Assembly: GCA_028871455.1 (NCBI GenBank)
Contig: JAGWNF010000017.1
Coordinates: 1 to 64,000, forward strand
Source: Alphaproteobacteria bacterium
GTDB taxonomy: Bacteria > Pseudomonadota > Alphaproteobacteria > ATCC43930 > CGMCC-115725
Length of the DNA: 64,000 nt
Reading direction: 5' to 3'
The position numbers were made by a program, and so were the translations under genes. This document shows positions 22,167-42,152 of the stretch, one piece after another. A model generated the notes under the pieces. That model did no database searches. It was not told where the DNA came from and saw only the letters and a list, made by a program, of their open reading frames with translations. The first letter of the stretch is position 1. Every line of letters starts with the position of its first letter.

Positions 22167-22208
22167 TTGATCTATATCAAGAGAGCCCGACGGTGCCTCA
22201 ATTAGAAT
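22167..22208 (+). promoter_or_regulatory. FNR/FixK-type class II promoter of the first UbiD gene
   Basis: TTGATCTATATCAA (22167-22180) fits the FNR/FixK consensus TTGAT-N4-ATCAA. TAGAAT at 22203-22208 fits a -10 box. The box centre (22173.5) is about 41 bases before a start near 22215, the classic class II spacing. Transcription would then begin about 25 bases before the ATG at 22240. This implies activation under low oxygen. Confidence 0.7.
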
Positions 22209-22239
22209 GCTTAGAACCCTAACAAAGAGAACAAACAAA

Positions 22240-23760
22240 ATGGCACTCCAGGAGGAACGCGCTGACGTGAACATTACCGGTCAGCGGGCGGATGAAAGCC
22301 GGGTTCAACCCGACGGCGCCCGCCACATTCCCTACGACGATCTGCGCGGCTGGGTCGATGAGGCCCGGAAGCTCGGGGAAATTCGCGAGGTCAAGGGTCT
22401 ATCGTGGCAGGAGGACATCGGCACAGTCGCCGAACTCCTCATGCATGACGAGCATGCGCCCTGCGCCATCTTCGAAGATATCCCCGGATCGCTGCGCGGG
22501 AGCCGGGTGCTGGTCAATTTCTTCGGCGGCCGGCGCCGGAACATGACTCTCGGCTTTCCGGTCGAATTCACCAAAGTCGAACTGAGCGAGGCCTACCGCT
22601 CTCATTATATGGCCGATCTCCGGCTCATCCCGCCGAAATTCGTTTCCACCGGTCCGGTGCTCGAGAACGTCATGACGGGCGCGGCGATCGATGTGCTGAA
22701 GTTTCCGACCCCGAAGTGGCACGCGCCGGACGGTGGGCGCTACATCGGCACCGGCTCCTTCAACGTCACGCGCGATCCGGAGGAGAACTGGGTGAATTGC
22801 GGCACCTATCGGGTCATGATTCACGACAAGACATCGCTCGGCTTTTACATTTCGCCCGGCAAGCATGGCCGCATTCATCGCGACAAATGGGCGGCGCGGA
22901 ATGAGCCGATGCCGGTCGTCGTGGTATGCGGTGCGGATCCGCTGACCTTCCTCGTGTCGAGCAGCGAGGTTCCCTACGGCATCTGCGAGTACGACATTGT
23001 CGGCGGCATCCGCGGCACACCCGTCGAGGTCATCAAGGGCCCGGTCACCGGCCTGCCGTTCCCCGCCAAGTCCGAGATCGTGATCGAAGGATTCTATAGG
23101 CCCGGCAATCATCGGGCGGAGGGGCCTTTCGGCGAGTGGACCGGCTACTACGGCAGCGATATCCGCGACGAACCGGTTCTCGACATCAAGGCCATCTACT
23201 ATCGCAACAACCCGATCCTGCTCGGCTGTCCGCCGCAGCGTCCGCCGGAGGAGCAGGCGCGCTACCGCGCCGTGATCCGATCCGCCCTGCTGCGCGAGGA
23301 ACTGGCGAAGGCCGGCATCCCCGACGTGACCGCCGTCTGGGCGCATGAGGTCGGCGGTTCACGGCTTCTTCTGGGCGTCGCGATCAAGCAGCGTTATGCC
23401 GGCCATGCGAAGCAGGCCGGCCATGTTGCCTGCCAATGTCATGCCGGGGCTTATGCTGGCCGCTATGTCGTTGTCGTCGATGACGATATCGACGTTTCCG
23501 ATCTCGAGGAATTGATGTGGGCGGTGTGCACGCGTTCCGACCCGGCAACGTCGATCGACATTGTCACCAACGCCTGGAGCACGCCCCTCGATCCACGAAT
23601 CGAGCCCGAGCGTCGAGAGCGCGGCGACTTCACGAACAGCCGCGCGGTTGTCGACGCGTGCCGCCCATGGTACTGGCGCGACAAATTTCCGATGGTGAAC
23701 ATGCCGACGCTGGAGGCTCGCCGTGCGGCGCGCCAGCGGTTCGGCTATCTGCTGAAGTGA
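22240..23760 (+). CDS. UbiD-family prenyl-FMN-dependent (de)carboxylase, first copy
   Basis: A 506-residue UbiD protein. The conserved Arg is in NCGTYRVMIHD, and the two catalytic Glu are in AEGPFGEWTGYYG (EGPFGE, near residue 300). These match the E-R-E set of active UbiD enzymes. It should use prenylated FMN made by UbiX (25690-26286) to decarboxylate or carboxylate an aromatic or alpha,beta-unsaturated acid. ATG at 22240 is chosen because the likely transcription start is near 22215; GTG at 22267 with GGAGG upstream is an alternative. A 14-pair inverted repeat follows the gene. Confidence 0.92.
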   Translation: MALQEERADVNITGQRADESRVQPDGARHIPYDDLRGWVDEARKLGEIREVKGLSWQEDIGTVAELLMHDEHAPCAIFEDIPGSLRGSRVLVNFFGGRRRNMTLGFPVEFTKVELSEAYRSHYMADLRLIPPKFVSTGPVLENVMTGAAIDVLKFPTPKWHAPDGGRYIGTGSFNVTRDPEENWVNCGTYRVMIHDKTSLGFYISPGKHGRIHRDKWAARNEPMPVVVVCGADPLTFLVSSSEVPYGICEYDIVGGIRGTPVEVIKGPVTGLPFPAKSEIVIEGFYRPGNHRAEGPFGEWTGYYGSDIRDEPVLDIKAIYYRNNPILLGCPPQRPPEEQARYRAVIRSALLREELAKAGIPDVTAVWAHEVGGSRLLLGVAIKQRYAGHAKQAGHVACQCHAGAYAGRYVVVVDDDIDVSDLEELMWAVCTRSDPATSIDIVTNAWSTPLDPRIEPERRERGDFTNSRAVVDACRPWYWRDKFPMVNMPTLEARRAARQRFGYLLK

Positions 23761-23902: not shown

Positions 23903-25483
23903 ATGGCAACCCTGCTCGACAATTTGGTGGCGGCGCTGCCGTTGATCGCGTGCCAGGGCGGCGGCAGGGCGGGATTGACCGACCTCGGCGGTCATTGCCT
24001 CTGCGCGGTCGATCGCCAGGGCGCAGCCGTCGAAGAGGCCGAGCCCGCGATCCTCAGCCTGTGCCGTATCGCCGCCGAAACCGGCGAGACGCAGAGCCTG
24101 GTCGATCCGGCATCCGGCGTGGCACAGGTCGCAGTGCCGCTCGAGGGCTACGTCCTGTTCGTCTCCAATGTGAGTCAGATCGAGCGACAGAACGAGCTCT
24201 TCAACACGCTCAAGGAGACCTTGCCGCTGATTGCCCGCGTCGCCGGCGGTGAGGCGGTCCTGTTCGACAAGGACGGGCGCCGGATCCTCACAGCCGATCC
24301 CATCCTGGGCAAGGCGCGGGTCGGCCCGGGCACCATCTCAGAGCCATGCGGCGAGGTGATGCGCAGCGGCCGACCCAGTATCGGCCCCTCGCGTTCGGCG
24401 CCCGGCGCCATGGCAGTCCGCATCCCCATGGGATCGGCCTTTGGCTTCGGTTTCAACAACTCGGCGTCGGTGCGCCAGAAGGAGCGGCTGCTCGAGCAGG
24501 TGAAGGACGCCCGTACCGGCAAGTACAGCTGGGAGGACATCGTCGGCAGCAGCGCTGAACTCGGCCGGGTTATCGACCTCGCCAAGAAGGTGGCGCCATC
24601 GAATTCGTCGGTGATGCTTACCGGCGAGAGCGGCACCGGCAAAGAACTCTTCGCCCAGGCGATTCACAACGCCTCGGCGCGCAGCCACGGCCCGTTCGTG
24701 GCGATCAACTGTTCCGCACTGCCGGGCAGCCTGGTCGAAAGCAGTTTGTTCGGCTACGAGGAGGGTGCCTTTACCGGCGCTCAACGCGGCGGACGCGCCG
24801 GCCTCTTCGAGCAGGCGCGCGGCGGCACTCTACTGCTCGACGAGATCAGCGAGATGCCGCTCGAGACCCAGGCCAAGCTGCTGCGCGTGCTGCAAGAGCG
24901 CGAAGTCTGCCGGATCGGCTCCGCCAAGCCGATTCCGGTCGATGTTCGCATCATCGCCACCTCAAATCGCGATGTGAAGCGGCGCGTCGAGGACGGATCT
25001 TTCCGCCAGGACCTTTACTATCGCCTGAACGTCATCGAGCTGCACCTGCCGCCCCTGCGGGAGCGGCGTGAAGACATCCCGGAGATCGTCGCGCGGATCC
25101 TCGATCGGTTGTGCCGCCAGAACGGCCATGTCGCCATTGCGATCGAGCCTCGCGCGATGGAACGGCTCAAGGCCTACGACTGGCCGGGTAACTGCCGCGA
25201 GCTGCACAATGTGCTCGAACGAGCGATCAATCTCACCGGCGGCGGCGTACTCGAGCCGCATCATTTCGCCGGTCTTGCCGACGACCAAGTCTCCGACGAA
25301 CCGGCCGAAGGCACCATGCAGCTCGCCGGCCATCTCGCCGAGGCTGAGCAGACCGTCATCCTCGAGGCGCTGAAACGCAACGGCGGCCGCCGCGTCGAGA
25401 CCGCGCGCGAGCTCGGCATCAGCGTGACGACGCTATGGCGCCGGCTCAAGCGCATGCGTCTTGAGCATCATGTCTCGATCTGA
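23903..25483 (+). CDS. Sigma54-dependent activator (NtrC family)
   Basis: A 526-residue enhancer-binding protein. A divergent sensor region (about 1-200) with no clear PAS or GAF motif is followed by the AAA+ domain: Walker A GESGTGKE, the sigma54-contact loop GAFTGA, and the Walker B stretch [18 protein letters not shown] Fis-type helix-turn-helix lies at the C-terminus ([19 protein letters not shown]). ATG at 23903 is preferred; the longer frame has no similarity. It lies directly upstream of a sigma54 promoter with two palindromic sites (25512-25614), so it almost certainly controls ubiX and the genes after it. The sensor may bind the aromatic acid. Confidence 0.93.
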
Positions 25484-25511: not shown

Positions 25512-25556
25512 TTTCATATATGAACAGTGGCGCCACCAAATCTTTCATAAATGAAA
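25512..25556 (+). promoter_or_regulatory. Two palindromic upstream activating sites
   Basis: TTTCATATATGAAC (25512-25525) and TTTCATAAATGAAA (25543-25556) share the pattern TTTCAT-N2-ATGAA. Their centres are 31 bases apart, three helical turns, so both face the same side. They begin about 90 bases upstream of the -24 element. They are the likely binding sites of the activator encoded at 23903-25483. Confidence 0.75.
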
Positions 25557-25598
25557 AGTCGGATCGGTCTAAACCCGCAAAATGCCGTCGCGTCGACG

Positions 25599-25614
25599 TG
25601 GCACGCCGCATGCA
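25599..25614 (+). promoter_or_regulatory. Sigma54 (-24/-12) promoter of the ubiX operon
   Basis: TGGCACGCCGCATGCA matches the sigma54 consensus TGGCACG-N4-TTGCA with one change. The GG (25600-25601) and GC (25612-25613) are exactly 12 bases apart. Transcription should begin near 25625, giving a leader of about 65 bases before ubiX. Confidence 0.8.
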
Positions 25615-25689
25615 CAAAGTCTGGCGCCTCCGCACTCATGCGGCGGCCAATAGACGGGTGCCGTCGAGCGCCCGGCGCAAGGGGAAACG

Positions 25690-26286
25690 ATGAAGCGGCT
25701 GATCGTCGGCATGACCGGCGCCACGGGTGCAATTTTCGGCGTTCGCCTGCTCAAGGCGTTGCGCGGCGCCGGCGTCGAAAGTCATCTGGTCGTCAGCAAA
25801 TGGGCGCAGCGAACGCTCGAGCATGAGACCGGGATGACGCTACAGCAGGTGCGTGACCTCGCCACCGCAAGCTACAGCCCGGACGACATGGGCGCGAAGA
25901 TCTCGTCGGGGTCATTCATCACCGAAGGCATGGTCGTCATTCCGTGCTCGATGCGTGCGGTCGCCGCCATCGCCCATGGCGTCGGCGATCACCTCGTCCA
26001 CCGCGCCGCGGACGTCATCCTCAAGGAGCGGCGGCGCCTCGTTCTTGTGGCACGCGAGACCCCGCTGAGCGAGGTGCATCTCGAGAATCTGTTGCGGCTG
26101 GCGCAGATGGGCGTTGCGATCGTGCCGCCGGTCCCCGCTTTCTACAATCACCCGCAGACGATCGACGACATCGTCGACCACATCGTCGCGCGCGTGCTCG
26201 ACCAGTTCGGCATCGGCGTCGATTTCGCACACCGCTGGGATGGGCACATGGAGGTCGGCGCCTCCGCGATCCACCGATTGAAATAA
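25690..26286 (+). CDS. ubiX: UbiX-type flavin prenyltransferase
   Basis: A 198-residue flavoprotein with KRLIVGMTGATGAIFGVRLL (FMN-binding start), the SSGSF and IPCSMRAVAAIAHG motifs, RRRLVLVARETPLS (dimethylallyl-phosphate pocket) and MGVAIVPPVPAFY. These are the marks of UbiX/Pad1, which attach a dimethylallyl group to FMN to make the UbiD cofactor. It is the only ubiX in the window and could supply all three UbiD proteins. It is the first gene after the sigma54 promoter, 35 bases before the second UbiD gene. Confidence 0.95.
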   Translation: MKRLIVGMTGATGAIFGVRLLKALRGAGVESHLVVSKWAQRTLEHETGMTLQQVRDLATASYSPDDMGAKISSGSFITEGMVVIPCSMRAVAAIAHGVGDHLVHRAADVILKERRRLVLVARETPLSEVHLENLLRLAQMGVAIVPPVPAFYNHPQTIDDIVDHIVARVLDQFGIGVDFAHRWDGHMEVGASAIHRLK

Positions 26287-26321
26287 CCGCTTACCTCGAA
26301 ACCACAAGCCCTGGGGCGACG

Positions 26322-27899
26322 ATGGATACGATCGATACATCACGAAAAACAACCGCGAAGCGCGACGTCACCAACCTCCGCGCCACGCTCGAATGGCTGC
26401 GCGCCGAGGGCGATCTCATCGAGACCGATCGCGAAGTCAATCCCGATCTCGAAATCACCGGGCTGCAAAAGCACATGGACGGCGGCCCGCCGGTGCTCTT
26501 CCATAACGTCAAGGGCATGCCGCACGCCCGCGCCGTGACCAACCTGTTCTCGGACATCAACGTCATCGACAAAATGTTCGGCTTCGCCGGCGCACGCGAC
26601 CGCACGCGCAAGCTCGCGCATGCGCTGACCCATCCCTTGCCGCCGAAGGAGGTGCCGCAATCCGAGGCGCCTTGCCAGGAGGAGGTCATCACCGGCGACC
26701 TCAACGTCAACAAGTACATCACCGCCATCCGCCACACCGCGCTCGAACCCGAGCTCACCGTTGGCTCGGGCATCTCGTGCGTCGTCGGGCCCTATTTCGA
26801 TGGTGGCAGCCACATCGGCTACAACCGCATGAATTTCCGCTGGGGCAATGTCGGCACGCTGCAGATCTCGCCGGGCTCGCACATGTGGCAGGTCATGACG
26901 AAGCATTATCGGGACGACAAGCCGATCCCGCTCACCATGTGCTTTGGCGTACCGCCGGCCTGCACGCTTGTTGCCGGCAGCGGCTTCGACTATGTCGTCC
27001 TCCCCAAGGGCTGCGACGAGATCGGCGTGGCCGGAGCCATCCAAGGCGCGCCGGTGCATCTCGTCAAAGCGCGCACGGTCGACGCCTGGGCGATCGCCGA
27101 ATCGGAATACGTGCTCGAGGGCGAACTTCATCCGCGCGACAAACGTTACGAGACGCGCGAGTCGGAAGAAGCCGACAAACAAGGGAAATTCTTCTTCCAC
27201 CCCGAGTGGTCCGGCTACATGGGCAAGGCGTATAAGGCGCCGACCTTTCACGTCACCGCGATCACCATGCGCAAGCGCGCCGGCAAGCCGATCGTCTTTC
27301 CGCTTGGCGTGCACACCTCGGACGATTCCAATATCGACACGACCATCCGCGAGGCGGCGATCTTCGAGCTTTGCGAGCGCCTCCAGCCCGGCATCATTCA
27401 GGACGTGCACGTCCCGTACTGCATGACCGACTGGGGCGGTTGCATCATTCAGGTGAAAAAGCGCAACCAGATCGAGGAAGGCTGGCAGCGTAACTTTCTC
27501 GCCGCGATCTTGTCCTGCTCGCAGGGCATGCGCCTCGCCATCGCGGTCAGCGAGGATGTCGATCTCTATTCGATGGACGACATCGTATGGTGTCTGACGA
27601 CGCGCGTGAACCCGCGCACCGACATCCTCAATCCGCTACCGGGCGGCATCGGCCAGACGTTCCAGCCGGCCGAACGCATGACCGCCGGCGACAAGCAGTG
27701 GACGGCATCGAACACGCGCTTCGAGGGCGGCATGGGCATCGACGCCACCGTGCCCTTCGGATACGAGCAGGATTTTCACCGCCCGGTCTATCCGGTGGAT
27801 CGTGTGAAGCTGGAGGACTTCTTCAAACCGGCCGACATCGCCAAGGCCAGGGCGCGGATGCAAGGCTGGGTGCTGTCGCTGGCCAGGACCGGACGCTAG
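26322..27899 (+). CDS. UbiD-family decarboxylase, second copy; candidate phthaloyl-CoA decarboxylase
   Basis: A 525-residue UbiD protein that is clearly diverged from the other two. The EGPFGE motif of typical members is reduced to HPEWSGYMG, keeping only the second Glu. The usual GxYR stretch is replaced by YNRMNFRWGN. Family members with CoA-thioester substrates, such as phthaloyl-CoA decarboxylase, form a separate branch. Its setting, ubiX immediately before and two class III CoA-transferases immediately after, is that of the anaerobic phthalate operon of Thauera and Aromatoleum. The predicted reaction is phthaloyl-CoA to benzoyl-CoA plus CO2. ATG at 26322. Confidence 0.8.
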   Translation: MDTIDTSRKTTAKRDVTNLRATLEWLRAEGDLIETDREVNPDLEITGLQKHMDGGPPVLFHNVKGMPHARAVTNLFSDINVIDKMFGFAGARDRTRKLAHALTHPLPPKEVPQSEAPCQEEVITGDLNVNKYITAIRHTALEPELTVGSGISCVVGPYFDGGSHIGYNRMNFRWGNVGTLQISPGSHMWQVMTKHYRDDKPIPLTMCFGVPPACTLVAGSGFDYVVLPKGCDEIGVAGAIQGAPVHLVKARTVDAWAIAESEYVLEGELHPRDKRYETRESEEADKQGKFFFHPEWSGYMGKAYKAPTFHVTAITMRKRAGKPIVFPLGVHTSDDSNIDTTIREAAIFELCERLQPGIIQDVHVPYCMTDWGGCIIQVKKRNQIEEGWQRNFLAAILSCSQGMRLAIAVSEDVDLYSMDDIVWCLTTRVNPRTDILNPLPGGIGQTFQPAERMTAGDKQWTASNTRFEGGMGIDATVPFGYEQDFHRPVYPVDRVKLEDFFKPADIAKARARMQGWVLSLARTGR

Positions 27900-27947
27900 G
27901 CGACTGCGCGCGGGGAGGGCGTATCCGCCTTTCCCCCGCAGTGGGGT

Positions 27948-29102
27948 ATGGAAGCGATCATGCTCAAGGGTCGTCTCGTTCTCGATTGCAGCGATCGCTC
28001 CGGCTGGCTCGCCGGCCGGCTGCTCGCCGATCTCGGTGCCGAGGTGGTGAAGCTCGACGCGCGGGATACCGACCGCACCGATCCCGGCTGGCAGGCCTAC
28101 AACGTCAACAAGCGGCCGCTCGATCTCGACGTGACGAGCGAAGGCGGACGCCGGCGCTTTGACGACCTGGTCGGAATCGCCGACATCGTCATCGCCTGCT
28201 ACCGGCCGGGAACGCCGGCAGCCGCCGTCTTCGACTACGATCGCCTCGCGACGCTCAATCCGCAGCTCATCGTCGTCGCGATTTCGCCCTTCGGTCTGTC
28301 GGGGCCACGGGCGCAGTGGAAGGCGACCGACATCGAGCTGATGGCGGCGGGCGGCGCCATGTCGCTCGCCGGCGAGCCGGACGGCGTGCCGCAGCGGGTG
28401 AGCGTTCCGCAATCGTATTCCTGGACCGGCGCGCAGGCGGCTATCGGCGCCCTTATCGCCATCAACCACCGCAACGTCTCGGGCGCGGGACAGCTCGTCG
28501 ACGTCTCCGGCCAAGCCTCGGTCGTCTTGGCGCTCGCCCACGCGCCCACCTTCTGGGACATCGAGCGCAAGGAGCCGACGCGCGCCGGCGCCTATGTGAC
28601 CGGACGCTCCGTCACGGGCGCGCGCTACCGCGTCTTCTGGCCGTGCCGCGACGGCTATTTGAACTTCGTTCTCTACGGCGGGAGCGCCGGCCGGCGTACC
28701 AACCAGCAGCTCGTCGCCTGGATGCGCGAGACGCGCGCCGAGCTCGGCCCCCTCGCCGAAATCGACTGGTCGCGCTTCGACCCGACGCGTGCCACCCAAG
28801 CGGAGGTCGACGCCATCGAGGCGCGCATGCAGGCGTTCTTCGCCACCCTCACCAAGCGCGAATTTCTCGACGGCGCGCATCGCCGAGAGATGCTCGGCTA
28901 TCCCATCGCCACCGTCGCCGACATCGCCGAGGACCCGCAGCTCGAAGCGCGGCGATTCTGGCAGATGGTGCGTGGGCCCGACGGCGTTACGCGCCGCCAT
29001 TGCGGCAGCTTCGCGGTGATTGACGGCAGGCGTCCGCCGCTGCGCGTATGGCCGCTCGACGCCACCCGCGCGGCGACCGCATCGGGGGAAACGGTCGGAT
29101 GA
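27948..29102 (+). CDS. Class III CoA-transferase (CaiB/BaiF), subunit without catalytic Asp; SptA/SptB-like
   Basis: A 384-residue CaiB-family protein. WLAGRLLADLGAEVVKLDAR and the C-terminal half are typical. In active members a catalytic Asp lies three residues before a conserved Gly; here this position is Ser in PQSYSWTGAQAAIG. It is therefore probably the non-catalytic partner of the subunit encoded next. Heteromeric class III enzymes such as BbsEF and SptAB are known precedents. A possible alternative start is the ATG at 27960. Its gene overlaps the next by four bases (ATGA), which favours a fixed-ratio complex. Confidence 0.85.
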   Translation: MEAIMLKGRLVLDCSDRSGWLAGRLLADLGAEVVKLDARDTDRTDPGWQAYNVNKRPLDLDVTSEGGRRRFDDLVGIADIVIACYRPGTPAAAVFDYDRLATLNPQLIVVAISPFGLSGPRAQWKATDIELMAAGGAMSLAGEPDGVPQRVSVPQSYSWTGAQAAIGALIAINHRNVSGAGQLVDVSGQASVVLALAHAPTFWDIERKEPTRAGAYVTGRSVTGARYRVFWPCRDGYLNFVLYGGSAGRRTNQQLVAWMRETRAELGPLAEIDWSRFDPTRATQAEVDAIEARMQAFFATLTKREFLDGAHRREMLGYPIATVADIAEDPQLEARRFWQMVRGPDGVTRRHCGSFAVIDGRRPPLRVWPLDATRAATASGETVG

Positions 29103-30319
29103 GTGCGGTCGCCCAGGCCCTCGACGGCGTCAAGATCGTCGAATTCGGCGGCTACGCGGCCGGTCCACATATCGGCAAGATCCTCGCGAATTACGGCGCC
29201 ACCGTCGTGCACGTCGAGAGCCGAGAGCGACCGGACGGCTTCCGCCTGCAATATCCTCCCTTCAAGGACGGCATGCCAGGCATCGACCGCGGCGGATGCT
29301 TCGCCTTCTTCAACGATTCGAAATACGGCATCACCCTCAATTTGAAGCGCAGCGCGGGCGTGACGCTGGCGCGACGTCTCGTCGCCTGGGGCGACGTCGT
29401 GATCGAGAACATGCGGCCGGGCGTGATGGCACGGCTTGGACTCGGCTACGAGAGCCTGCGCACCGGCCATTCCGACCTGATCATGCTGTCGACCTGCAAC
29501 ATGGGACAGACCGGACCGCGCGCCGATACGCCGGGCTTCGGCTCGCAACTTACGGCGCTGGCCGGCTTCTGCGGGCTCACCGGCGAGCCCGACGGGTCGC
29601 CCATGCTGCTCTACGGACCCTATATCGATTTCATCGGCTCGGCGCTCGGCACGGTCGCCGTGTTGGCCGCACTCGACCGGCGGCATCGCACCGGCTGCGG
29701 CAGCTACATCGATCTCTCGCAATATGAATGCGGCCTCACCTTTCTCGCCGGGGCTTTGCTCGACTACGAGATCAGCGGTCACGTGGCCGAGCGCGCCGGA
29801 AATCGCGACCCCGACGCGGCGCCGCACGGTGCCTATCTCTGCCGTGCCGGACGCTGGCTCGCACTCTCGTGTTGGAGCGACGCGGAATTCGCCGCCTTGA
29901 TGCGAGCCATTGGGCGACCGGCACTCGCCGCAGATCCGCGCTTCGCCGGACTCGCGGCCCGGCAGGATCATCGCGCCGCGCTCGATGCCGCGCTCGCCGC
30001 GTGGTGTTGGACGCAAGACGCCGACGAGGCCGCCATCCTGCTGCAGCACGCCGGCGTTGCGGTGCATCCGGTGAATACCATTTCCGACCTGTTCGACGAT
30101 CTCCAACTGCGCCATCGCCGCACCTGGCGCACGCGACGTCATCCGGTCATCGGCGATCAGGCTTACCATTTCCCGGGCTTCGAGTTGTCGCGCACGCCCG
30201 GCGACGTCACCGCGCCGGCGCCGCTGCTGGGCGCCGACAACGCGACCGTCTTCCAACAGTTCCTCAAGCTCGACGCGGCGGAACTCGAAGCGCTGCGCCG
30301 GGAAGATGCCATCGACTGA
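29099..30319 (+). CDS. Class III CoA-transferase (CaiB/BaiF), catalytic subunit; SptA/SptB-like
   Basis: A 406-residue CaiB-family CoA-transferase. GGYAAGPHIGKILANYGATV and VVIENMRPGVMARLGLGYE are family signatures. The catalytic Asp is present in YGPYIDFIGSALG, unlike in its partner. With the upstream gene it should move CoA, probably from succinyl-CoA, to an aromatic dicarboxylate, forming an aryl-CoA that the UbiD protein decarboxylates. ATG at 29099 overlaps the stop of the partner. Confidence 0.88.
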   Translation: MSAVAQALDGVKIVEFGGYAAGPHIGKILANYGATVVHVESRERPDGFRLQYPPFKDGMPGIDRGGCFAFFNDSKYGITLNLKRSAGVTLARRLVAWGDVVIENMRPGVMARLGLGYESLRTGHSDLIMLSTCNMGQTGPRADTPGFGSQLTALAGFCGLTGEPDGSPMLLYGPYIDFIGSALGTVAVLAALDRRHRTGCGSYIDLSQYECGLTFLAGALLDYEISGHVAERAGNRDPDAAPHGAYLCRAGRWLALSCWSDAEFAALMRAIGRPALAADPRFAGLAARQDHRAALDAALAAWCWTQDADEAAILLQHAGVAVHPVNTISDLFDDLQLRHRRTWRTRRHPVIGDQAYHFPGFELSRTPGDVTAPAPLLGADNATVFQQFLKLDAAELEALRREDAID

Positions 30320-30334
30320 TTGAGGGGTCGTGTC

Positions 30335-30814
30335 ATGCAGGCTGAGGCGGATGCGAAGGAAGCGGCGCTGGCGCTGATCGCGTCCCTTCATGTCTGCAGC
30401 CTGGCGACGGGTGCTGATGGCCGGCCGCATGCAGCATCGCTCATGTACGCGCACGAGGGTTTCCGGCTGTTCTGGTTTTCCGATCCGGCGACGGAGCATT
30501 CGCGACACATCGACGCCGCGCCATCCGCGCGGGCGGCAGTGACGATCGCCGCCGATCACCAGGACTTCGCGACGATCCGCGGCGTGCAAATGGTGGGCGT
30601 GGCGCGGCGCGTGACCAACCCGCGCGAGATGACGGCAGCGCTCGCCCTGCTCACCGGACGTTACGGCTTCCTCGCCCGCGCCCGCGGCGGACCGGAGCGG
30701 CTCGCCGAGGCCTTGCGCAAGGCGGCCATCTACCGCTTTACCCCCGACCGCATCACGCTGATCGACAATACCAAGGGATTCGGCCACAAGATCACCTTCG
30801 ACCCAGGCGGCTGA
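30335..30814 (+). CDS. Pyridoxamine-phosphate-oxidase-like split-barrel flavin protein
   Basis: A 159-residue protein of the PNPOx/flavin-reductase-like split barrel. The first part has SLHVCSLATGADGRPHAASL, the FMN-contacting strands follow (FRLFWFSDPATEHSRHI, RAAVTIAADHQDF), and VQMVGVARRVT closes the barrel. ATG at 30335 follows GAGGGG, 15 bases after the CoA-transferase stop, so it is in the same operon. A role is not predictable; it could bind FMN or prenyl-FMN and support UbiX/UbiD. Confidence 0.8.
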   Translation: MQAEADAKEAALALIASLHVCSLATGADGRPHAASLMYAHEGFRLFWFSDPATEHSRHIDAAPSARAAVTIAADHQDFATIRGVQMVGVARRVTNPREMTAALALLTGRYGFLARARGGPERLAEALRKAAIYRFTPDRITLIDNTKGFGHKITFDPGG

Positions 30815-31746: not shown

Positions 31747-32718
31747 TCAGCGCATGATCTCGCGGATCGTCGCTAAAATCTTCTCGGCCGTGGGCTCGAT
31801 ATAGCGTTCGAGTGGTTGGCTGAAGGGGACCGGAACATCGAGCGTTGCTACGCGCTTTACCGGTGCCTTGAGCTGCGAAAACCCTTCTTCGGCGGCGAGC
31901 GCAGCGATTTCCGCCGCGACGCCGCAGCTTCGATGGCACTCGTCGACGACGACGAGCCGGCCGGTTTTTGCGATGGATGTCAGCACCGTCTGCTTGTCGA
32001 GCGGGACGAGCGTCCGCAAGTCGACGACCTCGGCGTCGATGCCTTCGGCTACCGCCGTACCTGCCGCTTCGAGCGCGCGCTGCACCATAAGCGAGCTGGC
32101 GACGATCGTGACATCGCGGCCGTTGCGCTTGACCTCCGCACGGCCGAACGGAATCGAGAACAACTCCTCCGGCACCTCGCCCTTCACTTCGAAGAGCCTC
32201 GCATGGTCGACGACGATCGTCGGATTGTCGCTGTGGACCGCCTCGGCCAGCAGGCCCTTGACGTCGCGGGGCGAGGCCGGTAGGGCGATCTCGAGTCCGG
32301 GCGTGTTCCATAACATCGCCTGCGGGCTGTGCGAGTGCTGCGCCGCGCCGCCGCCGCGCAAGCCATGAAGAATATGGAAGACGACGGGCGCGCTGAGTTG
32401 CCCGCCGGACATGTAGCGCACGTTGGCGGCTTCGTTGATCACTTGTGGGAAGCCGTGAAACAGGAAGCTCGCCGTGGTGACGTCGACGATCGGCCGAAGC
32501 CCCGCCATCGCGGCGCCGACGGCGAGGCCGCAGACACCTCCTTCCGAGATCGGCGGATCGAAGACCCGACCGGGAAATTCCTTCCGGATATCCTCGAGCA
32601 GCACGCGCCTCGGGCTGAGGCCGAGGAAATAGCTTCCGATCAGGCACACGCGCCGGTCGGCGCGCATCACGTCGCGCAATGCTTCGACTTTGGCTTCCGC
32701 GTAGGTGATTTCGCGCAT
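31747..32718 (-). CDS. 2-oxoacid dehydrogenase E1 beta subunit, second pair
   Basis: A 323-residue transketolase-central/C-terminal protein (AcoB/PdhB type) with MREITYAEAKVEALRD, VFDPPISEGGVCGLAVGAAM, and the C-terminal loop VVDLRTLVPLDKQT. ATG at 32718 is chosen, since the TTG at 32736 overlaps the previous stop. It is the last gene of the six-gene operon beginning at 39529. With the E1 alpha subunit encoded upstream it forms a TPP enzyme that decarboxylates a 2-oxoacid or cleaves a diketone. No E2 or E3 gene is in the operon. Confidence 0.9.
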   Translation of the reverse strand: MREITYAEAKVEALRDVMRADRRVCLIGSYFLGLSPRRVLLEDIRKEFPGRVFDPPISEGGVCGLAVGAAMAGLRPIVDVTTASFLFHGFPQVINEAANVRYMSGGQLSAPVVFHILHGLRGGGAAQHSHSPQAMLWNTPGLEIALPASPRDVKGLLAEAVHSDNPTIVVDHARLFEVKGEVPEELFSIPFGRAEVKRNGRDVTIVASSLMVQRALEAAGTAVAEGIDAEVVDLRTLVPLDKQTVLTSIAKTGRLVVVDECHRSCGVAAEIAALAAEEGFSQLKAPVKRVATLDVPVPFSQPLERYIEPTAEKILATIREIMR

Positions 32719-32732
32719 TGTTGTCCGTCCGT

Positions 32733-33752
32733 TCAAGCGAACACGTCATCGAGGGCGGACGCCGGATCGGGATAAGGCGCCTCGATCGCGAACCGCATCG
32801 CCTTCGCGAGATCGGCGCGAACCGTCGCATCCAGCGCGAGGATCTCCTTTGTGTTCGCAAGCTTTGCATCGAAGAGCTGCCGCACGTACCGGATCAGCCC
32901 GTCGTTCGCGAACCAGTCGCGATGTGCCATCGGAATCCGGTCGGGCTCCCAGGCAAATGCGACATCGGTCTCGCCGGTGGACAGCTCCGGCCACAGCGGA
33001 CGGCTGCCTGGCCAGCGGACGGTTCGCGCCTCGATGAATGTCGGCCCGCCGCCGTTTCGCGCGCGGGCCAGCGCCTGCTGCGTGACATCGCGTACCGCGC
33101 GCGGATCGCCGCCGTCCACCGCGCTCGCCGGCACTCCGAACGGTGCGACCACGTCGATCAATTGCTTCGTCGCGATGGTAGATCCCGGATACTCGCCGGC
33201 GCTCTGACCGAGCGCGCCAGCGCTGTTATTCTCGCACATGAAGACGACTGGCAGCTTCCACAGCGAAGCCATGTTGAGCGATTCGAAAAACACGCCTTCC
33301 TCGAGCACGCCATCGCCGAAAAAACCCACCGAGACGCAGCGTTCGCCCAACTGCTTCGCAGCGAATCCCGCGCCGACGGCGAGCGGCACCGCGCCGCCGA
33401 CGAGCGCCGACGTGCTGAGAAATCCCAGGCCGGCGACTGTCGCATGCAGCGTGCCGCCCTTGCCCTTGTTGTAGCCGGCGGCTTTTCCCAGAATCTCGGC
33501 GTAGAGGCGCCGAGGGTCCGCGCCGCGCGCCAGGAGATGGCCGTGGTTGCGATGCGTGGTCGCGATCTTGTCCTGCGGTTCGAGCAGCGCAATCGCGGCC
33601 GCGCCGGTACATTCCTGGCCGATGTAGACGTGAAAATGACCGATGGAGATACCCGACTTCTGCGTCTGGATCAGCCCTTCCTCGAAGCGGCGTATCAACA
33701 GCATCGTCCGCAGAAGCTCCATCGCCTCTTGCTGGTTCAATTCGGAGGTCAT
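32733..33752 (-). CDS. 2-oxoacid dehydrogenase E1 alpha subunit, second pair (TPP-binding)
   Basis: A 339-residue E1 alpha protein. The TPP motif runs from GFFGDGVLEEG to CENN about 26 residues later. YIGQECTGAAAIALLEP and HRNHGHLLARG give the pyrophosphate-contact histidines. It overlaps the first E1 beta gene by four bases (ATGA) and is followed after 14 bases by the second E1 beta gene. It is well diverged from the alpha subunit at 34731, so this is not a recent duplicate. Acetoin-dehydrogenase-like sequence. Confidence 0.9.
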   Translation of the reverse strand: MTSELNQQEAMELLRTMLLIRRFEEGLIQTQKSGISIGHFHVYIGQECTGAAAIALLEPQDKIATTHRNHGHLLARGADPRRLYAEILGKAAGYNKGKGGTLHATVAGLGFLSTSALVGGAVPLAVGAGFAAKQLGERCVSVGFFGDGVLEEGVFFESLNMASLWKLPVVFMCENNSAGALGQSAGEYPGSTIATKQLIDVVAPFGVPASAVDGGDPRAVRDVTQQALARARNGGGPTFIEARTVRWPGSRPLWPELSTGETDVAFAWEPDRIPMAHRDWFANDGLIRYVRQLFDAKLANTKEILALDATVRADLAKAMRFAIEAPYPDPASALDDVFA

Positions 33753-34726
33753 GCGCCGAGCACCACCTTTCGTACGGCTCCGGCGAGCCGTTCGGCTCCC
33801 GGAACAAAGGCCTGTTCGAGCACCGGGCTCGCCGGAACCGGCGCGAAGGGCGCTCCAACCCTCGCAATCGGAGCGTCGAGGTAATCGAACGCCGCCTCCT
33901 GGACCTGCGCCAGGAGCTCGGCACCGAAGCCGGCACCCTCAACGGCTTCATGGGCGATCACCAACCGCCCGGTCTTGCGGAGGGAAGCGGTGATGGTGTC
34001 CAGATCGAGCGGCAACAGGCTGCGCGGATCGATCACTTCCACCTCGATTCCCTCGTTCGCCAGCGTTCCGGCAACCTCGAGCGCAACCTCCACCATCCGC
34101 GACGTGGCGACCAGGGTCACGTCCTTCCCCGGACGGCGCAGAGCCGCGCGCCCGATCGGAATCGTGTGCTCGCCATCCGGCACCTCGCCCCGCGTCCAAT
34201 AAAGCGCGCGGTGCTCGATGCATATGACGGGGCTGTCATCGCGGATGGCCGCCGTGAGCAGCCCCTTCGCATCGGCCGGATTCGAGGGCATGACGACCTT
34301 GAGCCCCGGGACATGAATGAACCAGGCTTCGAGACTCTGCGAATGCTGCGCGCCGCCGTTGCCGGCGGCGCCTTGCTGCACGCGAACCGTGAGCGGAATC
34401 CCGAGCTGTCCGCCCGACATGTAATGGAGCTTCGCGGCGTGATTGACGAGCTGATCCATCGCGAGCGTGATGAAATCGACGAACATGACTTCGATGACGG
34501 GGCGCAGCCCCATGGCCGCTGCGCCGGTCGCGAGACCCATGATCGCGCCCTCGCTGATCGGCGTGTTGACGACCCGCCGCTCTCCGAACTCCGCGGCGAG
34601 TCCTTTCGTCGCGCCGAACGGCCCGCCAAGCGCGACGTCTTCGCCGATCACGTAGACGCCGCGGTCCCGTGCAAGCTCTTCGCGTAGCGCGCTGTTGATG
34701 GCTTCGATATAGGTCAGCTCCGCCAT
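33749..34726 (-). CDS. 2-oxoacid dehydrogenase E1 beta subunit, first pair
   Basis: A 325-residue E1 beta protein. MAELTYIEAINSALREEL, VIGEDVALGGPFGATKGL, VVNTPISEGAIMGLATGAA and YMSGGQLGIPLTVR are standard. The C-terminal domain has VEVIDPRSLLPLDLDT. It follows its alpha partner by four bases and overlaps the next gene by four bases, so translation is coupled. Confidence 0.92.
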   Translation of the reverse strand: MAELTYIEAINSALREELARDRGVYVIGEDVALGGPFGATKGLAAEFGERRVVNTPISEGAIMGLATGAAAMGLRPVIEVMFVDFITLAMDQLVNHAAKLHYMSGGQLGIPLTVRVQQGAAGNGGAQHSQSLEAWFIHVPGLKVVMPSNPADAKGLLTAAIRDDSPVICIEHRALYWTRGEVPDGEHTIPIGRAALRRPGKDVTLVATSRMVEVALEVAGTLANEGIEVEVIDPRSLLPLDLDTITASLRKTGRLVIAHEAVEGAGFGAELLAQVQEAAFDYLDAPIARVGAPFAPVPASPVLEQAFVPGAERLAGAVRKVVLGA

Positions 34727-34730
34727 GGGA

Positions 34731-35672
34731 CTAACCGGCGTAGACGAGGGTCGTTACCTCGTCGACCGAAGGCCAAGCGCCGGTCGAGGCCTTTTGGGCT
34801 GCGGCCTCCACCGACGCCCGGGCTTCGGCTTCGACCGCACGCATCTGCTCGTGGGTGCAGGTCCCCTTTTTGACGAGGGTAGCCGCAAACCGACGGATCG
34901 GATCCTTCGTCTTCCAGTCCGAGAGCTCGGATAGCTCCCGGTATTTCGCCGGATCGCCTTCGTAGTGCCCGCGCAGCCGATAGGTCATGCATTCGATGAA
35001 GCTCGGCCCACCGCCGGCACGCGCCCGCGCCGCCGCGTCGGATATGGCCGTGCGAACCGCCAGCACGTCGTTGCCGTCCACGGTTGCGCTCGGAATGCCA
35101 TAGGTCTCGGCATGGCGCGCGAGCTGCGAGATGGGCGTATGCGCCGACAACGGCGTGAACTCGGCATAACCGTTGTTTTCGCAGATGAAAAGCAGCGGCA
35201 GCTTCCACAGCGCGGCGATGTTGAGCGATTCATGAAACGCGCCGCTTTGTCCTGCGCCGTCGCCAAAGAATACCGCCGCGACTTCCTGTTTTTCGCGCTC
35301 CTTGCAGGCAAAAGCGACGCCGAGCGCGAGCGCAACGTTGCCGCCGACGATACCCGTTGCGGTGACGAAACCCGTCGTGGGAGCCGCGAGGTGCATCGAT
35401 CCGCCCTTGCCCCGGCAACACCCGGTTTCCCGCCCCGCGAGTTCGGCGAACAGGCTCGCGATATCCACGCCTTTTGCGATTGCGTGGCCGTGCGGCCGAT
35501 GGCCGCTCACCACGCGATCTGTGGTCCGCAAGGCGGCGCAGGCGCCGGCCGCGACGGCCTCCTGGCCGATCGAAAGATGCAGGAGGCCGTGAACCTCACG
35601 TCTACCGAACAGCTCGGACACCTTTTCTTCGAAGGCGCGGATCGTCCACATCGTCCGCAGCAGACGCAGCAC
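34731..35672 (-). CDS. 2-oxoacid dehydrogenase E1 alpha subunit, first pair (TPP-binding)
   Basis: A 313-residue E1 alpha protein. TPP motif FFGDGAGQSG to CENNGYAE; GHRPHGHAIAKGVD is the His loop. Translation most likely starts at the GTG at 35672, giving VLRLLRTMWTIRAFEEKVSE, the usual beginning of this family. This start lies just after the stop of the hydantoinase-B-type gene (35677), so the two are tightly coupled. Substrate unknown; the ketone-carboxylase-like genes upstream suggest a 2-oxo acid or diketone formed from a ketone. Confidence 0.88.
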   Translation of the reverse strand: MLRLLRTMWTIRAFEEKVSELFGRREVHGLLHLSIGQEAVAAGACAALRTTDRVVSGHRPHGHAIAKGVDIASLFAELAGRETGCCRGKGGSMHLAAPTTGFVTATGIVGGNVALALGVAFACKEREKQEVAAVFFGDGAGQSGAFHESLNIAALWKLPLLFICENNGYAEFTPLSAHTPISQLARHAETYGIPSATVDGNDVLAVRTAISDAAARARAGGGPSFIECMTYRLRGHYEGDPAKYRELSELSDWKTKDPIRRFAATLVKKGTCTHEQMRAVEAEARASVEAAAQKASTGAWPSVDEVTTLVYAG

Positions 35673-35676
35673 GGTC

Positions 35677-37434
35677 CTACCGTTGAACCGTGCTGCGCAG
35701 CCTTCGTGTGGCGGCCTCGTCGAGTTGAAGCGTTGCCGGATCGACCACCACCTTATAGACGTCGCGCGCTGCTTGGATGGAGACGAGTTCGTTTTCCACG
35801 TCTTGGCGCACCATCTCCGGATCGCGCTCGGCCGGATTGCCGACTCCGCCGCCGCCACTCGAATGCTTCTCGATGACGTCGCCGGTCTTGATGTCGACCA
35901 ATCGGTGCGGCTTCAACCTGATCTTTTCGCCGTTGCGAACGATGTAGGTCCTGCACTGGGGCGAAGGCTGTCCGCCGACCGCGCCGAACCCCTGGACTTC
36001 GTCCCCGTCCGAACTTCCGGTCGCAATGCCGCCGTCGCTGCCCTCGTTGCGCGCCGCCCAATAGATTCCCGGCCCGCCGCGCCACCGACCGGCCCCGGTG
36101 AAATCGGGAACCATCTCGTATCGGACCATGCGCCACGGCAGCCGGATTTCCATTTCTTCGACTTCGCCGCGGTTCACCGCACCAAGCGCGGTCAAACAGC
36201 TGACGCCCTGGTAGCCGTCGAAGCCCCACACCGCGCCGCAGCTTCCGTCGTAATCGAACGAAGTGCGGACATACCGCTCCTTGGTGCGTGGATCCGTGCC
36301 GAATACATAATCACCGCGGTGTTTACCCCAGGCAGCGATCGCGCGCTCGGGGCGCGCCTTGGCAAGCGCCTCGAGCACCGCTTCCATGATCTGGATGCCG
36401 ACGTTCACCGGCGAGGCGCCGACCGTGGCCGGATATTGCGCGTTGACGACCGAACCCACGGGCGCGATCACCTCGATCGGACGCAACGTTCCCTCGTTGT
36501 GGTAGTCGGCGAGCGCGGGATCGAGGCACAACAAAATCGCCGCGATCGCGTTGCCGTATGTGGATGCCAAGGTACTGTTGACAAACCCTTTGCGCTGCTT
36601 GTCGCTCCCGGAAAAGTCGAGCGTCATTTTGTCGCCTTTGATCGTGACGACGACCTTCACCCATACCTGCACGTCGAGCTCCGTGCCGTCGTCATCGGTC
36701 GCCGCCGCGCCGTGATAAACGCCATCGGGAATCTTGCGGATCTCTTCTCGCACCGCGTGCTCGGTGCGATTGGTCATCTGTTCCACGCACTGCAGCACCA
36801 CATCCCTGCCGTAGTGCCGAAGCAACGCGCCAATCCTCTGCTCGCATTTCGTGGTCGCGGCGAGCATCGCATAATTATCGATACGCACGCCCCGCGGGAA
36901 TCGCACGTTGTTCCAGATCAGCTCGAACAGATCGCGGCGTTCCTTGCCGGCCTCGATGATCTTGAGCGGCGGTATGCAGATCCCCTCGGCGTGGATATCG
37001 AAGCCGTTGGGGAAGTAACCGCCGGGATACGAGCCGCCGGTATCCTGCTGGTGGGCGCGTGCCATGGTGAAGAACAGCAGCTCACCCTTGTGGAAGATCG
37101 GCCGGAAGAACGCCCAGTCCGGCAGGTGGCAGCAATGTCCGCCGTGGTAGGGGTCATTCGTGATGAACACGTCGCCCGGCGCGATGTTCTTGCCAAATTT
37201 TTCGACCAACGACCTCACGGCAAAGCCGGTGCCGAGAAATTGGACGGGCAAGCCCACGGGCACGGCAACCGTTCCACCACGCGCATCCCAGATCCCGACT
37301 GAAACATCGTGCAACTGGCTGATCAGGAAATTCTGGGCCGTGCGGTCGATGACGTGCCGCATCTCCTTGCAGATGGTCTGCATGGAGTGCCAGACGGTCG
37401 AAACGGTGATCGGATCAACGGCGCGTTTAAGCAT
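35677..37434 (-). CDS. Hydantoinase B/acetone-carboxylase-type beta subunit (HyuB family)
   Basis: A 585-residue HyuB-family protein. The signature FITNDPYHGGHCCHLPDW, the DTGGSYPGGYFPNGFDIHAEG stretch, DFSGSDKQRKGFVNST and the late glycine-rich GTNPAERD-like ending (SSGGGGVGNP) are typical. Members pair with HyuA-type subunits in N-methylhydantoinase, 5-oxoprolinase and ATP-dependent ketone carboxylases. The gene overlaps the HyuA-type gene by eight bases, which supports a stoichiometric complex. Downstream are two TPP E1 pairs. Confidence 0.92.
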   Translation of the reverse strand: MLKRAVDPITVSTVWHSMQTICKEMRHVIDRTAQNFLISQLHDVSVGIWDARGGTVAVPVGLPVQFLGTGFAVRSLVEKFGKNIAPGDVFITNDPYHGGHCCHLPDWAFFRPIFHKGELLFFTMARAHQQDTGGSYPGGYFPNGFDIHAEGICIPPLKIIEAGKERRDLFELIWNNVRFPRGVRIDNYAMLAATTKCEQRIGALLRHYGRDVVLQCVEQMTNRTEHAVREEIRKIPDGVYHGAAATDDDGTELDVQVWVKVVVTIKGDKMTLDFSGSDKQRKGFVNSTLASTYGNAIAAILLCLDPALADYHNEGTLRPIEVIAPVGSVVNAQYPATVGASPVNVGIQIMEAVLEALAKARPERAIAAWGKHRGDYVFGTDPRTKERYVRTSFDYDGSCGAVWGFDGYQGVSCLTALGAVNRGEVEEMEIRLPWRMVRYEMVPDFTGAGRWRGGPGIYWAARNEGSDGGIATGSSDGDEVQGFGAVGGQPSPQCRTYIVRNGEKIRLKPHRLVDIKTGDVIEKHSSGGGGVGNPAERDPEMVRQDVENELVSIQAARDVYKVVVDPATLQLDEAATRRLRSTVQR

Positions 37435-39529
37435 GACGTTTCTCCCGGGAACCCTGTTGCTCGAGCACGTAGTTCCTGTAGCGATCGACTTTGCACACGA
37501 ATGGCTTGGGAACGACCACGGTCATGGTGGTCTCCTCGATGATAGCCGGGCCCCGTATAACATTGCCCGCACGCAGCCGCTCCGCGTCGTAGACCGGCGC
37601 CTCGACCTCGGCTCCGTTGAATCGGCATCGGCGGCGCCGTTTGAGTCCCGCGCTCGCGTCGGCTGTCCCCTTTTTGATCTCGCGCACATGGAAGGGCGCC
37701 TTAGGAGCCGTCGCCTTGACGCGCAGGTTGAGGATCTCGACCCCCATCCAAGGCATCGAGAACGTAAACAGCGCCTCGTGCTTTTTCATGAACGCCTGGA
37801 TCGCTCCGTCGACGTGCTTGCGCGTGAGCGAACCGCCGGCGACCTCGGTTTCCACTTCGTGGAACTGCCCCACATAGCGCATCTCGGCACTGCGTTGCAG
37901 GCGCACCTTATCCGCCGCAATCCCGATCGCCCGGAACGACTCCTTCGCCTGCCGCTCCATCTCGCCGTAGAGGCGGTTCATCGCCTCGAGGTCGGCCTTG
38001 TCGGCGCGCACCACATAGGAGCGCACGTAGTCCTCGCCCAAATCCATCGCGAACATGCCGAAGGCGCTGTAAAGCGCCGCCACCGAAGGGATCAAAACGG
38101 TCGGAATGCCGAGCTGTGCGGCGATGAAACCGCCGTGGGTCGGGCCACCGCCGCCGCCCGCGATCAGGATGGATTCGCGCACGTCGTGGCCGTTCTTGGT
38201 CATGACCTCGGTGATCTTGTCGGCCATGGTCGAGTTGATCGAGCGGAATATGGCTTCTGCCGTCGTTGCCTCGTCCATTCCGAGGGGCTTGCCGACCGCT
38301 CGCATCGCGCGCTTGGCCGCATTTACGTCCAGCTTGATCTCACCGCCGAGAAAATAATCGTGCGGGATGAAGCCGAGCAGGACATCCGCGTCGGTAACCG
38401 TCGCCTGGTCGCCTTTTCCGTAGCACGCCGGCCCGGGATCTGCGCCCGCGCTTTCCGGTCCGACCTTGAGGAGACCAAGGGAATCCATCCGTGCGAGGCT
38501 GCCGCCGCCGGCGCCCACGGTCTGAATATCCACCATCTTGATGGCGATGCGTTGATCGGCCTCCCAGCTCTCGGTCGTCGTCGGAATTTCTCCGTCGCGG
38601 ATCATGGCGACGTCGAAGCTCGTTCCGCCCATGTCGACGGAAATGAGATCGTGCTTCTTCAAGAGGTCGCCAAAATAAACGGCGGCCGACGGTGCTGCAG
38701 CCGGACCCGAGTGCAGCAAGTACACCGCTTTTCCGATGCACTGCTCGACGCTCTGCACCAAGCCGTTTGCCATCATGATGAGCAGCGACCCCTTGAAGCC
38801 GGAGGCCTTCAGGCGCCCTTGGAGTCCTGTCAGGTAGTTCGTCACGACCGGGCCGACATAGGCGCCGACCACCGTGGTGTTGAATCGATCGAACTCGCGC
38901 CACGCCGGCAATGTTTCATGCGAAGTGGTCACGTAGATTTCGGGCGCAATTTTGCGGACGATCTGTGCGGCCTTTAGTTCGTGCTTCGGATTTGCGTAGG
39001 AGTGCAGGAAGCACACGGCGATGGCGTTGACTCCGTCGGCTTTGAGGTTGCTCACCGCCTCAGCGACCTCGGTTTCATTCAACGGCACGGCAATTTCGCC
39101 GGTGTAGAGCGTGCGCTCGTCGATCCCGATCCGGCGCGAGCGTGGAACCAGCGGGCGATTGGGCGGAATGAAAATATTGTAGAGCGACACGTCGAGCGGC
39201 TTGATCCCGCGTCTGATCTCAAGGATGTCGCGGAAGTTCTTGGTGGTGAGCATCGCGGTTTTCGCCGCGCCGCGGCCCGTGATGAGGGTATTCGTCGCGA
39301 GCGTCGTCCCATGGATCAGCACCTCCACGGTCCCGAGGAATTCAGCAAGCGTCGCCTCGTAATGCGTCGCCGCCTTTTCGAGCGAATTCATGAAGCCATT
39401 GGATGGGTCCTTCGGCGTGGTTGGCGCTTTGAACTTCTTCAACTCGCCCGTCTCGTCGAGGACCAGGCAGTCGGTGAATGTTCCGCCGACGTCGATCGTC
39501 ACCCGCTTCTTCGCTTGCTTGCGTGCCAT
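37427..39529 (-). CDS. Hydantoinase A/acetone-carboxylase-type ATPase subunit (HyuA family)
   Basis: A 700-residue HyuA protein with an ASKHA-type ATPase core. TIDVGGTFTDCLVLDETG binds phosphate; VEVLIHGTTLATNTLI and LISVDMGGTSFDVAMI are family motifs. GAGGGSLARMDSLGLLKVGPESAGADPGPACYG is present in parts. Relatives use ATP to activate a carbonyl or amide: ketone carboxylation (acetone, acetophenone) or ring opening of hydantoins. Start is the ATG at 39529 with GGAG upstream. First gene of a six-gene operon, divergent from LysR. Confidence 0.93.
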   Translation of the reverse strand: MARKQAKKRVTIDVGGTFTDCLVLDETGELKKFKAPTTPKDPSNGFMNSLEKAATHYEATLAEFLGTVEVLIHGTTLATNTLITGRGAAKTAMLTTKNFRDILEIRRGIKPLDVSLYNIFIPPNRPLVPRSRRIGIDERTLYTGEIAVPLNETEVAEAVSNLKADGVNAIAVCFLHSYANPKHELKAAQIVRKIAPEIYVTTSHETLPAWREFDRFNTTVVGAYVGPVVTNYLTGLQGRLKASGFKGSLLIMMANGLVQSVEQCIGKAVYLLHSGPAAAPSAAVYFGDLLKKHDLISVDMGGTSFDVAMIRDGEIPTTTESWEADQRIAIKMVDIQTVGAGGGSLARMDSLGLLKVGPESAGADPGPACYGKGDQATVTDADVLLGFIPHDYFLGGEIKLDVNAAKRAMRAVGKPLGMDEATTAEAIFRSINSTMADKITEVMTKNGHDVRESILIAGGGGGPTHGGFIAAQLGIPTVLIPSVAALYSAFGMFAMDLGEDYVRSYVVRADKADLEAMNRLYGEMERQAKESFRAIGIAADKVRLQRSAEMRYVGQFHEVETEVAGGSLTRKHVDGAIQAFMKKHEALFTFSMPWMGVEILNLRVKATAPKAPFHVREIKKGTADASAGLKRRRRCRFNGAEVEAPVYDAERLRAGNVIRGPAIIEETTMTVVVPKPFVCKVDRYRNYVLEQQGSREKRHA

Positions 39530-42121: not shown

Positions 42122-42152
42122 GGGTTCTTGGTCCGGTGGGGTGGGGGAGCGA

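Follow-up and report, generated by a model that had tools for sequence, protein, structure and literature searches.

A predicted phthaloyl-CoA decarboxylase operon in a probable alphaproteobacterium and its candidate sigma54-dependent switch

The subject of this study is a predicted operon for the activation and decarboxylation of phthalate, a building block of plasticizers, together with the activator gene in front of it, in a 64,000-nucleotide stretch of DNA (the window; positions count from its first letter) from assembly GCA_028871455.1, deposited as Alphaproteobacteria bacterium. The window is part of contig 37, which is 69,413 bases long, in an assembly of 3.0 Mb and 51 contigs that is 96.2% complete. 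An earlier reading without database searches (the sequence-only reading) had named here ubiX, a UbiD gene and two overlapping CoA-transferase genes behind a sigma54 promoter. All of these genes are present in that order on the plus strand, the two CoA-transferase genes sharing a 4-base ATGA overlap, and the span holds in addition a fifth gene, for a PPOX-type flavoprotein (30335-30814), that had gone unmentioned. The features are listed below; identities refer to the phthalate cluster on plasmid 2 of Aromatoleum aromaticum EbN1 (NC_006824).

23903..25483, + strand: sigma54-dependent activator (bacterial enhancer-binding protein, bEBP) with a two-module N-terminal sensor, an AAA+ domain with GAFTGA and a Fis-type helix-turn-helix (HTH) (PF00158, E 7.9e-70; PF02954)
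25512..25525, + strand: putative upstream activator site 1, TTTCATATATGAAC (TTTCA-N4-TGAAA, 9/10)
25543..25556, + strand: putative upstream activator site 2, TTTCATAAATGAAA (TTTCA-N4-TGAAA, 10/10; 31 bases from site 1)
25599..25614, + strand: predicted sigma54 -24/-12 element, TGGCACGCCGCATGCA (11/12 to the consensus)
25690..26286, + strand: ubiX, flavin prenyltransferase for the supply of prenylated FMN (prFMN) to UbiD (TIGR00421, 262.7 bits, cut-off 108.9; 72% to EbN1 UbiX)
26322..27899, + strand: pcd, predicted phthaloyl-CoA decarboxylase of the UbiD family (PDB 8pmk/8oz5, E ~1e-293; 79.6% to EbN1; tree)
27960..29102, + strand: class III CoA-transferase, first subunit (65% to the first EbN1 CoA-transferase, same clade)
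29099..30319, + strand: class III CoA-transferase, second subunit (65% to the second EbN1 CoA-transferase, same clade)
30335..30814, + strand: PPOX/split-barrel flavoprotein, fifth operon gene (PF12900/PF01243, over cut-off)
22207..23760, + strand: second UbiD-family decarboxylase gene (PF01977, E 3.8e-63; 63% to a UbiD of the EbN1 phthalate cluster)

Judged by its sequence, the reading frame at 26322-27899 encodes phthaloyl-CoA decarboxylase (Pcd). A domain search finds the UbiD N, Rift and C domains, and residues 17-525 match the solved Pcd (8pmk/8oz5) at the E-value given above, the next UbiD following at 6e-47. In a tree of 84 rows the protein falls within the 81-row Pcd set, with two other UbiD proteins of the window and one of EbN1 outside it; this outgroup is very distant and does not fix the root inside Pcd. 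The sequence-only reading had called the protein a divergent UbiD; at 80% identity to EbN1 it is an ordinary Pcd instead. Its place is in a 12-row clade (support 99/95) with locus L006 and a mainly Acidobacteria/Chloroflexi set, apart from the Aromatoleum Pcd, and its sister is the Pcd of L006 (88% identical), whose genome appears to belong to the same family as the host. A pcd gene at E <= 1e-150 occurs in 2 of the 61 genomes searched, the window's own included.

For the comparison of loci we used the best 80 of 231 Pcd relatives (79 loci), and genome-wide searches covered 50 of the 79. A tree of 85 CoA-transferase rows (42 + 43) separates the two subunits and places each subunit of the window with its own EbN1 counterpart; the second-subunit set includes three distant rows, the window's not among them. 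Within this tree the window transferases are nearest to beta- and gammaproteobacterial ones. They correspond one to one to the EbN1 pair, share its gene order and adjoin pcd, and a transferase pair (both subunits at least 44% identical) is found at 39 of the 79 Pcd loci, in 33 of them directly behind pcd. Phylogeny of the UbiD and the CoA-transferases had been named beforehand as the refutation test of the phthalate assignment: all three proteins group with Pcd and the EbN1-type pair, none outside. The closest solved relative of both subunits is PDB 9fn0, a succinyl-CoA:benzylsuccinate CoA-transferase (presumably BbsEF), which is likewise a two-subunit class III enzyme but shows far lower similarity to them than the EbN1 pair does and has a different substrate. 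The EbN1 genes, which its record names only CoA transferase, we take to be SptAB, and by gene order we assume that the window subunits are SptA-type and SptB-type. A relative of the PPOX gene stands directly behind the second CoA-transferase gene in five of the 79 other loci (46-55% identical).

The cluster of EbN1 is thus the closest known parallel, with the same order of ubiX, pcd and two CoA-transferase genes, to which the window proteins are 72, 79-80, 65 and 65% identical, and with a 63% relative of the window's second UbiD. The two differ in that EbN1 carries a duplicated ubiX-pcd, an IclR-type regulator and TRAP/TAXI as well as further transporter genes, and the window the sigma54 activator, the palindromes and the PPOX gene. 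Passages of PMC13040137 report that the transferases of EbN1 and PA01 accept ortho-phthalate and neither iso- nor terephthalate; they also describe phthaloyl-CoA as highly unstable and mention a sulfate reducer that relies on a CoA ligase in place of a transferase.

Two observations from the Pcd tree stand apart from the operon. A long-branched Pcd-like clade of 24 rows (Xanthobacteraceae, Defluviicoccus, Binatia and others; L052, L053, L056, L058, L060-L069, L073, L074, L076-L080, L082-L084) shows on its loci, some of which are short, no transferase pair reaching the 44% level; we propose another activation route or another substrate as alternatives. The Pcd of L055, a contig titled as a Klebsiella pneumoniae metagenome-assembled genome (MAG), groups with betaproteobacterial ones, and the record is possibly mislabelled or contaminated.

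The region between the activator gene and ubiX carries the elements of a putative sigma54-dependent promoter. A -24/-12 element with the canonical GG/GC spacing, as had been claimed, lies at 25599-25614 and is the best match in the window (score = letters matched out of 12). By itself this site is not beyond chance: 0.67 sites with up to one mismatch are expected per 64 kb, and at least one arose in 48 of 100 shuffles. Its meaning is therefore drawn from its position and from the comparison of the 79 Pcd loci. Upstream of it, TTCAT-N2-ATGAA palindromes at 25513 and 25544 are the sole two copies in the 3.0-Mb assembly, with about 0.4 expected from base composition and none found for the reversed pattern. 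The sequence-only reading had described two TTTCAT-N2-ATGAA sites 31 bases apart; the pair and its spacing stand, and the exact pattern gives way to the more general TTTCA-N4-TGAAA, which we derived after reading the upstream regions of related loci. As an operator, exact TTCAT-N2-ATGAA was rejected, being absent from the six related loci checked (L006, L086, L016, L037, L020, L021). TTTCA-N4-TGAAA has one exact copy, at 25543, against a mean of 0.03 in shuffled windows, and allowing one mismatch gives four matches in the window (0.83 expected), namely these two sites, the other being at 25512, and two elsewhere at 35177 and 56647.

Across the Pcd loci we searched the 500-600 bases before ubiX or pcd, which left 74 of the 79 testable, five regions being too short. 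A full-length relative of the activator lies on the locus itself in four of the 79 (52-54% identical), and the sigma54 scores before ubiX or pcd in these four are 12, 11, 11 and 10 of 12. Among the other 70 testable loci, 69 reach at most 9, and L022 scores 12. At least one TTTCA-N4-TGAAA copy at 9-10/10 is present in the window, L016, L020, L021, L022 and L037 and in none of the 69 others; five of the 74 testable loci, in other words, combine such a palindrome with a sigma54 site of at least 10/12, and 69 have neither. The L022 contig is 4 kb long and shows no activator; its promoter was flagged before the regulator was found on another contig of that genome. When the 50 Pcd genomes were searched with the N-terminal part of the activator, relatives appeared in exactly five: L016, L020 (three copies), L021, L022 and L037. 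By genome, the observed co-occurrence of activator and palindrome is 5/5 versus 0/41 testable (Fisher 7e-7 on 46), a value that overstates independence because the five genomes amount to about two lineages beside the window.

An explanation in which promoter and palindromes are chance matches and the operon is read from another type of promoter could point to the roughly even odds of a sigma54-like match in a shuffled 64-kb window; set against two assembly-unique palindromes 31 bases apart and a like layout at five loci of activator-bearing genomes and 0 of 69 others, it is highly improbable. The choice of threshold matters here. A control pattern, AAAGT-N4-ACTTT, gave seven matches at 8/10 or better over 75 regions, and TTTCA-N4-TGAAA at the same level gave ten in the 70 regions whose contig carries no activator, three of them in L022; 9/10 therefore discriminates and 8/10 does not. 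One exact TTTCA-N4-TGAAA copy stands at an unrelated place, in L014. Sigma54 control as previously proposed is thus backed by five further loci with sites and activators, and the host encodes RpoN (one PF04963 match, E 1.7e-54). The arrangement, proposed earlier as new in this lineage, is not confined to it: it recurs, with activator relative, sigma54 site and palindrome or palindromes as in the window, in records titled Rhodospirillaceae (MAGs L016, L037, L022) and Geobacter or Desulfuromonadaceae (MAGs L020, L021), the regulator gene of the latter two being divergent, unlike that of the window.

Where two strong palindromes are present they are roughly phased, at 31 bases in the window, 20 in L016, 41 in L037 and 19 in L022 (2.95, 1.90, 3.90 and 1.81 helical turns). 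TTTCA-N4-TGAAA also occurs just before the regulator gene in L092, L093 and L094, which suggests that the activator may regulate its own gene. The regulator in the L022 genome adjoins a TRAP transporter gene, as does that of L016, and the regulator of L037 follows a TRAP gene at a distance of about 2 kb. In L016 and L037 the place of the transferase pair is taken by an acyl-CoA-ligase-type gene, and TRAP/TAXI genes are present; what these operons share with the window operon is therefore pcd, ubiX where seen, and the regulator. The simplest inducer that we infer for these operons would be phthalate or a product of it. The IclR regulator of EbN1 has relatives at 12 of the 79 Pcd loci, none of which has the activator, and it has none in the 64-kb window.

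The activator gene itself, with its likely ATG at 23903, its end at 25483, the GAFTGA loop and the Fis-type HTH, lies upstream of the operon as had been described. PrdR, NifA, AtoC and other NCBIfam bEBP models match its AAA+ and HTH parts strongly, and yet the 25 best of 28 matches all stay below the curated cut-offs; the N-terminal sensor, in contrast, matches no Pfam family, and sequence comparison with solved chains finds none that spans it. An AlphaFold2 model of the sensor (mean predicted local distance difference test, pLDDT, 85; five-sequence alignment) predicts two similar alpha/beta modules at about 1-96 and 97-195, which resemble PAS, GAF or roadblock domains in shape at low-to-middling scores (Foldseek template-modelling score about 0.2-0.3, VIA Z up to 8.1). 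Assignment to any one of these families was rejected, the fold partners being many and weak and the scores too low. The relatives tied to Pcd loci are 51-56% identical to the window activator; L016, L022 and L037 are mutually 72-85% identical, and L020 and L021 share 78%. The HTH segment is identical or differs by one residue across all six activators (window and five genomes). In the activators of L016 and of the L022 genome, GSFTGA replaces GAFTGA.

The L020 Geobacter genome encodes two further paralogues (L099 and L100), one adjoining a gene for a catalase-peroxidase and the other close to genes of chemoreceptor and binding-protein type; in both, the HTH segment has S in place of one T, and one carries a second change. 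Because these two adjoin other genes, the activator family appears not to be phthalate-only. The sites could accordingly be real and the activator sense another signal (e.g. the redox state or another acid), the operon being only part of a general response or standing beside another regulator, a possibility favoured by the settings of the paralogues and by the faint PAS/GAF/roadblock likeness of the sensor modules. Two findings make it fairly unlikely, namely that the activator occurs among the 50 Pcd genomes only where the palindromes precede pcd, and that both TTCAT-N2-ATGAA copies of the assembly stand at this operon.

Several points weigh against the reading of a phthalate operon under this activator, the paralogues beside other genes being one. 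For L006, the nearest relative, the genome shows no activator, no motif at 9/10 or better occurs on the locus, and the sigma54 score before ubiX reaches 6 at most (transferase genes are beyond view here, only 147 bases of contig remaining after pcd). The five loci are not independent and represent about three lineages including the window. We settled on the motif and the thresholds once the window and related loci had been viewed; L020 has only one site at 8/10 or better, and L021 one at 9/10 plus several weaker; promoters farther than the 500-600-base limit would be missed at the other loci. Relatives of the EbN1 TRAP permease, TAXI, DMT and porin genes were sought in the 64-kb window (ABC genes not queried) and none was found. 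L006 has no activator, the 12-row Pcd clade of the window holds none of the other activator-bearing loci, and the transferases are nearest to beta- and gammaproteobacterial ones; for these reasons activator and enzymes have probably not simply descended together.

The fate of benzoyl-CoA in this organism counts on the same side. Neither BcrB-, AOR/BamB- nor BoxB-type proteins were found in the 96.2%-complete assembly, where an assembly gap is possible, and Oah (TIGR03200) gave seven weak matches below cut-off, a family that also matches 11 of 14 control genomes. The named anaerobic phthalate module stands as far as the Pcd and transferase genes go; the case for a complete anaerobic pathway stops short, the assembly having yielded neither class of benzoyl-CoA reductase nor BoxB. 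Of the 50 other Pcd genomes, 33 have a BcrB-family match, which exceeds the family cut-off in 17 (L006, L016, L020 and L037 among them) and stays below it in L021; 17 have none, including L022. For the window genome, either the genes not found lie in the unassembled part or benzoyl-CoA may go elsewhere. A different substrate would also fit the gap: the enzymes might act on a substituted phthalate or another vicinal aromatic diacid and yield a substituted benzoyl-CoA, as the missing reductase and BoxB, the grouping of the window Pcd with L006 rather than with Aromatoleum Pcd, and the second UbiD and other aromatic-acid genes nearby could suggest. This is quite unlikely given 80% identity to EbN1 Pcd, 65% for each transferase subunit, the same gene order, the BcrB of the related L006 genome and the lack of a BcrB match in 17 of 50 other Pcd genomes as well; the known transferase pair, moreover, is described in passages of PMC13040137 as strict for ortho-phthalate.

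The second UbiD (22207-23760) has a relative at 55% identity or more in 20 of the 79 Pcd loci, including Xanthobacteraceae loci without a transferase pair; its nearest solved chain is 7pda. Its start is uncertain, as the first ATG overlaps a divergent open reading frame and similarity to EbN1 begins at residue 24. Across the whole assembly there are four matches to UbiD and six to class III CoA-transferases. No 16S gene was found in the bin; RpoN has its best matches in Azospirillum (62-63%), and the best 25 of 230 plasmid-collection records are all alphaproteobacterial. Farther along the window, the minus strand at 41318-50435 encodes two short-chain dehydrogenases/reductases (one BadH-like, below cut-off), a member of the benzoate-CoA ligase family (over cut-off), an acyl-CoA dehydrogenase, an Amidohydro_2 protein and a third UbiD. 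Two sets of pyruvate-dehydrogenase-like E1 genes stand beside a caprolactamase/acetophenone-carboxylase-like pair at 31747-39802. At 11648-12925 lies a gene for an anaerobic sulfatase maturase (radical SAM; over the curated cut-off), and at 56030-58000 one for a 656-residue oxidoreductase of the old-yellow-enzyme/FadH type (best NCBIfam match mycofactocin OYE 2, below cut-off).

Taken together, the locus very probably is an operon that activates and decarboxylates ortho-phthalate and is switched on by the sigma54 activator encoded upstream. The catabolic module is of an already known kind and well supported; the regulatory variant appears new and recurrent, and the comparison of loci supports it. 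In the mechanism that we propose, where substrate, inducer, DNA binding and transcription are inferred steps, UbiX would make prenylated FMN for Pcd, the two transferase subunits would move CoA from succinyl-CoA onto phthalate, and Pcd would at once decarboxylate the unstable phthaloyl-CoA to benzoyl-CoA. The N-terminal domain of the activator would sense phthalate or a product, the protein would bind the two TTTCA-N4-TGAAA palindromes and, by DNA looping, contact RNA polymerase-sigma54 at -24/-12, and ubiX, pcd, the CoA-transferase genes and the PPOX gene would be switched on. A bolder version is possible though rather doubtful: the activators may form an undescribed family with an unassigned two-module sensor and act as a portable switch for phthalate, joined to Pcd operons separately in this alphaproteobacterium, in Rhodospirillaceae MAGs and in Geobacter/Desulfuromonadaceae, independently of the Pcd tree and of the use of transferase or ligase, and the benzoyl-CoA of the window genome may enter a route other than the three known.

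Among open-licence papers we found none that links phthaloyl-CoA, or phthalate and UbiD, with sigma54, and none that combines phthaloyl-CoA with both regulation and alphaproteobacteria; the one paper found to join phthaloyl-CoA with alphaproteobacteria is PMC8269228, and literature behind subscription may go further. Passages of that study describe Pcd clades from beta-, gamma- and deltaproteobacteria, to which the present locus would add a probable alphaproteobacterium with a Pcd/CoA-transferase operon of the EbN1 kind. It also raises the question of how an organism with Pcd and no visible benzoyl-CoA reductase uses benzoyl-CoA. If our interpretation is true, anaerobic phthalate use has, besides IclR, a second means of regulation in this activator, whose defined operator could be used for finding such operons and for building phthalate sensors for anoxic systems.

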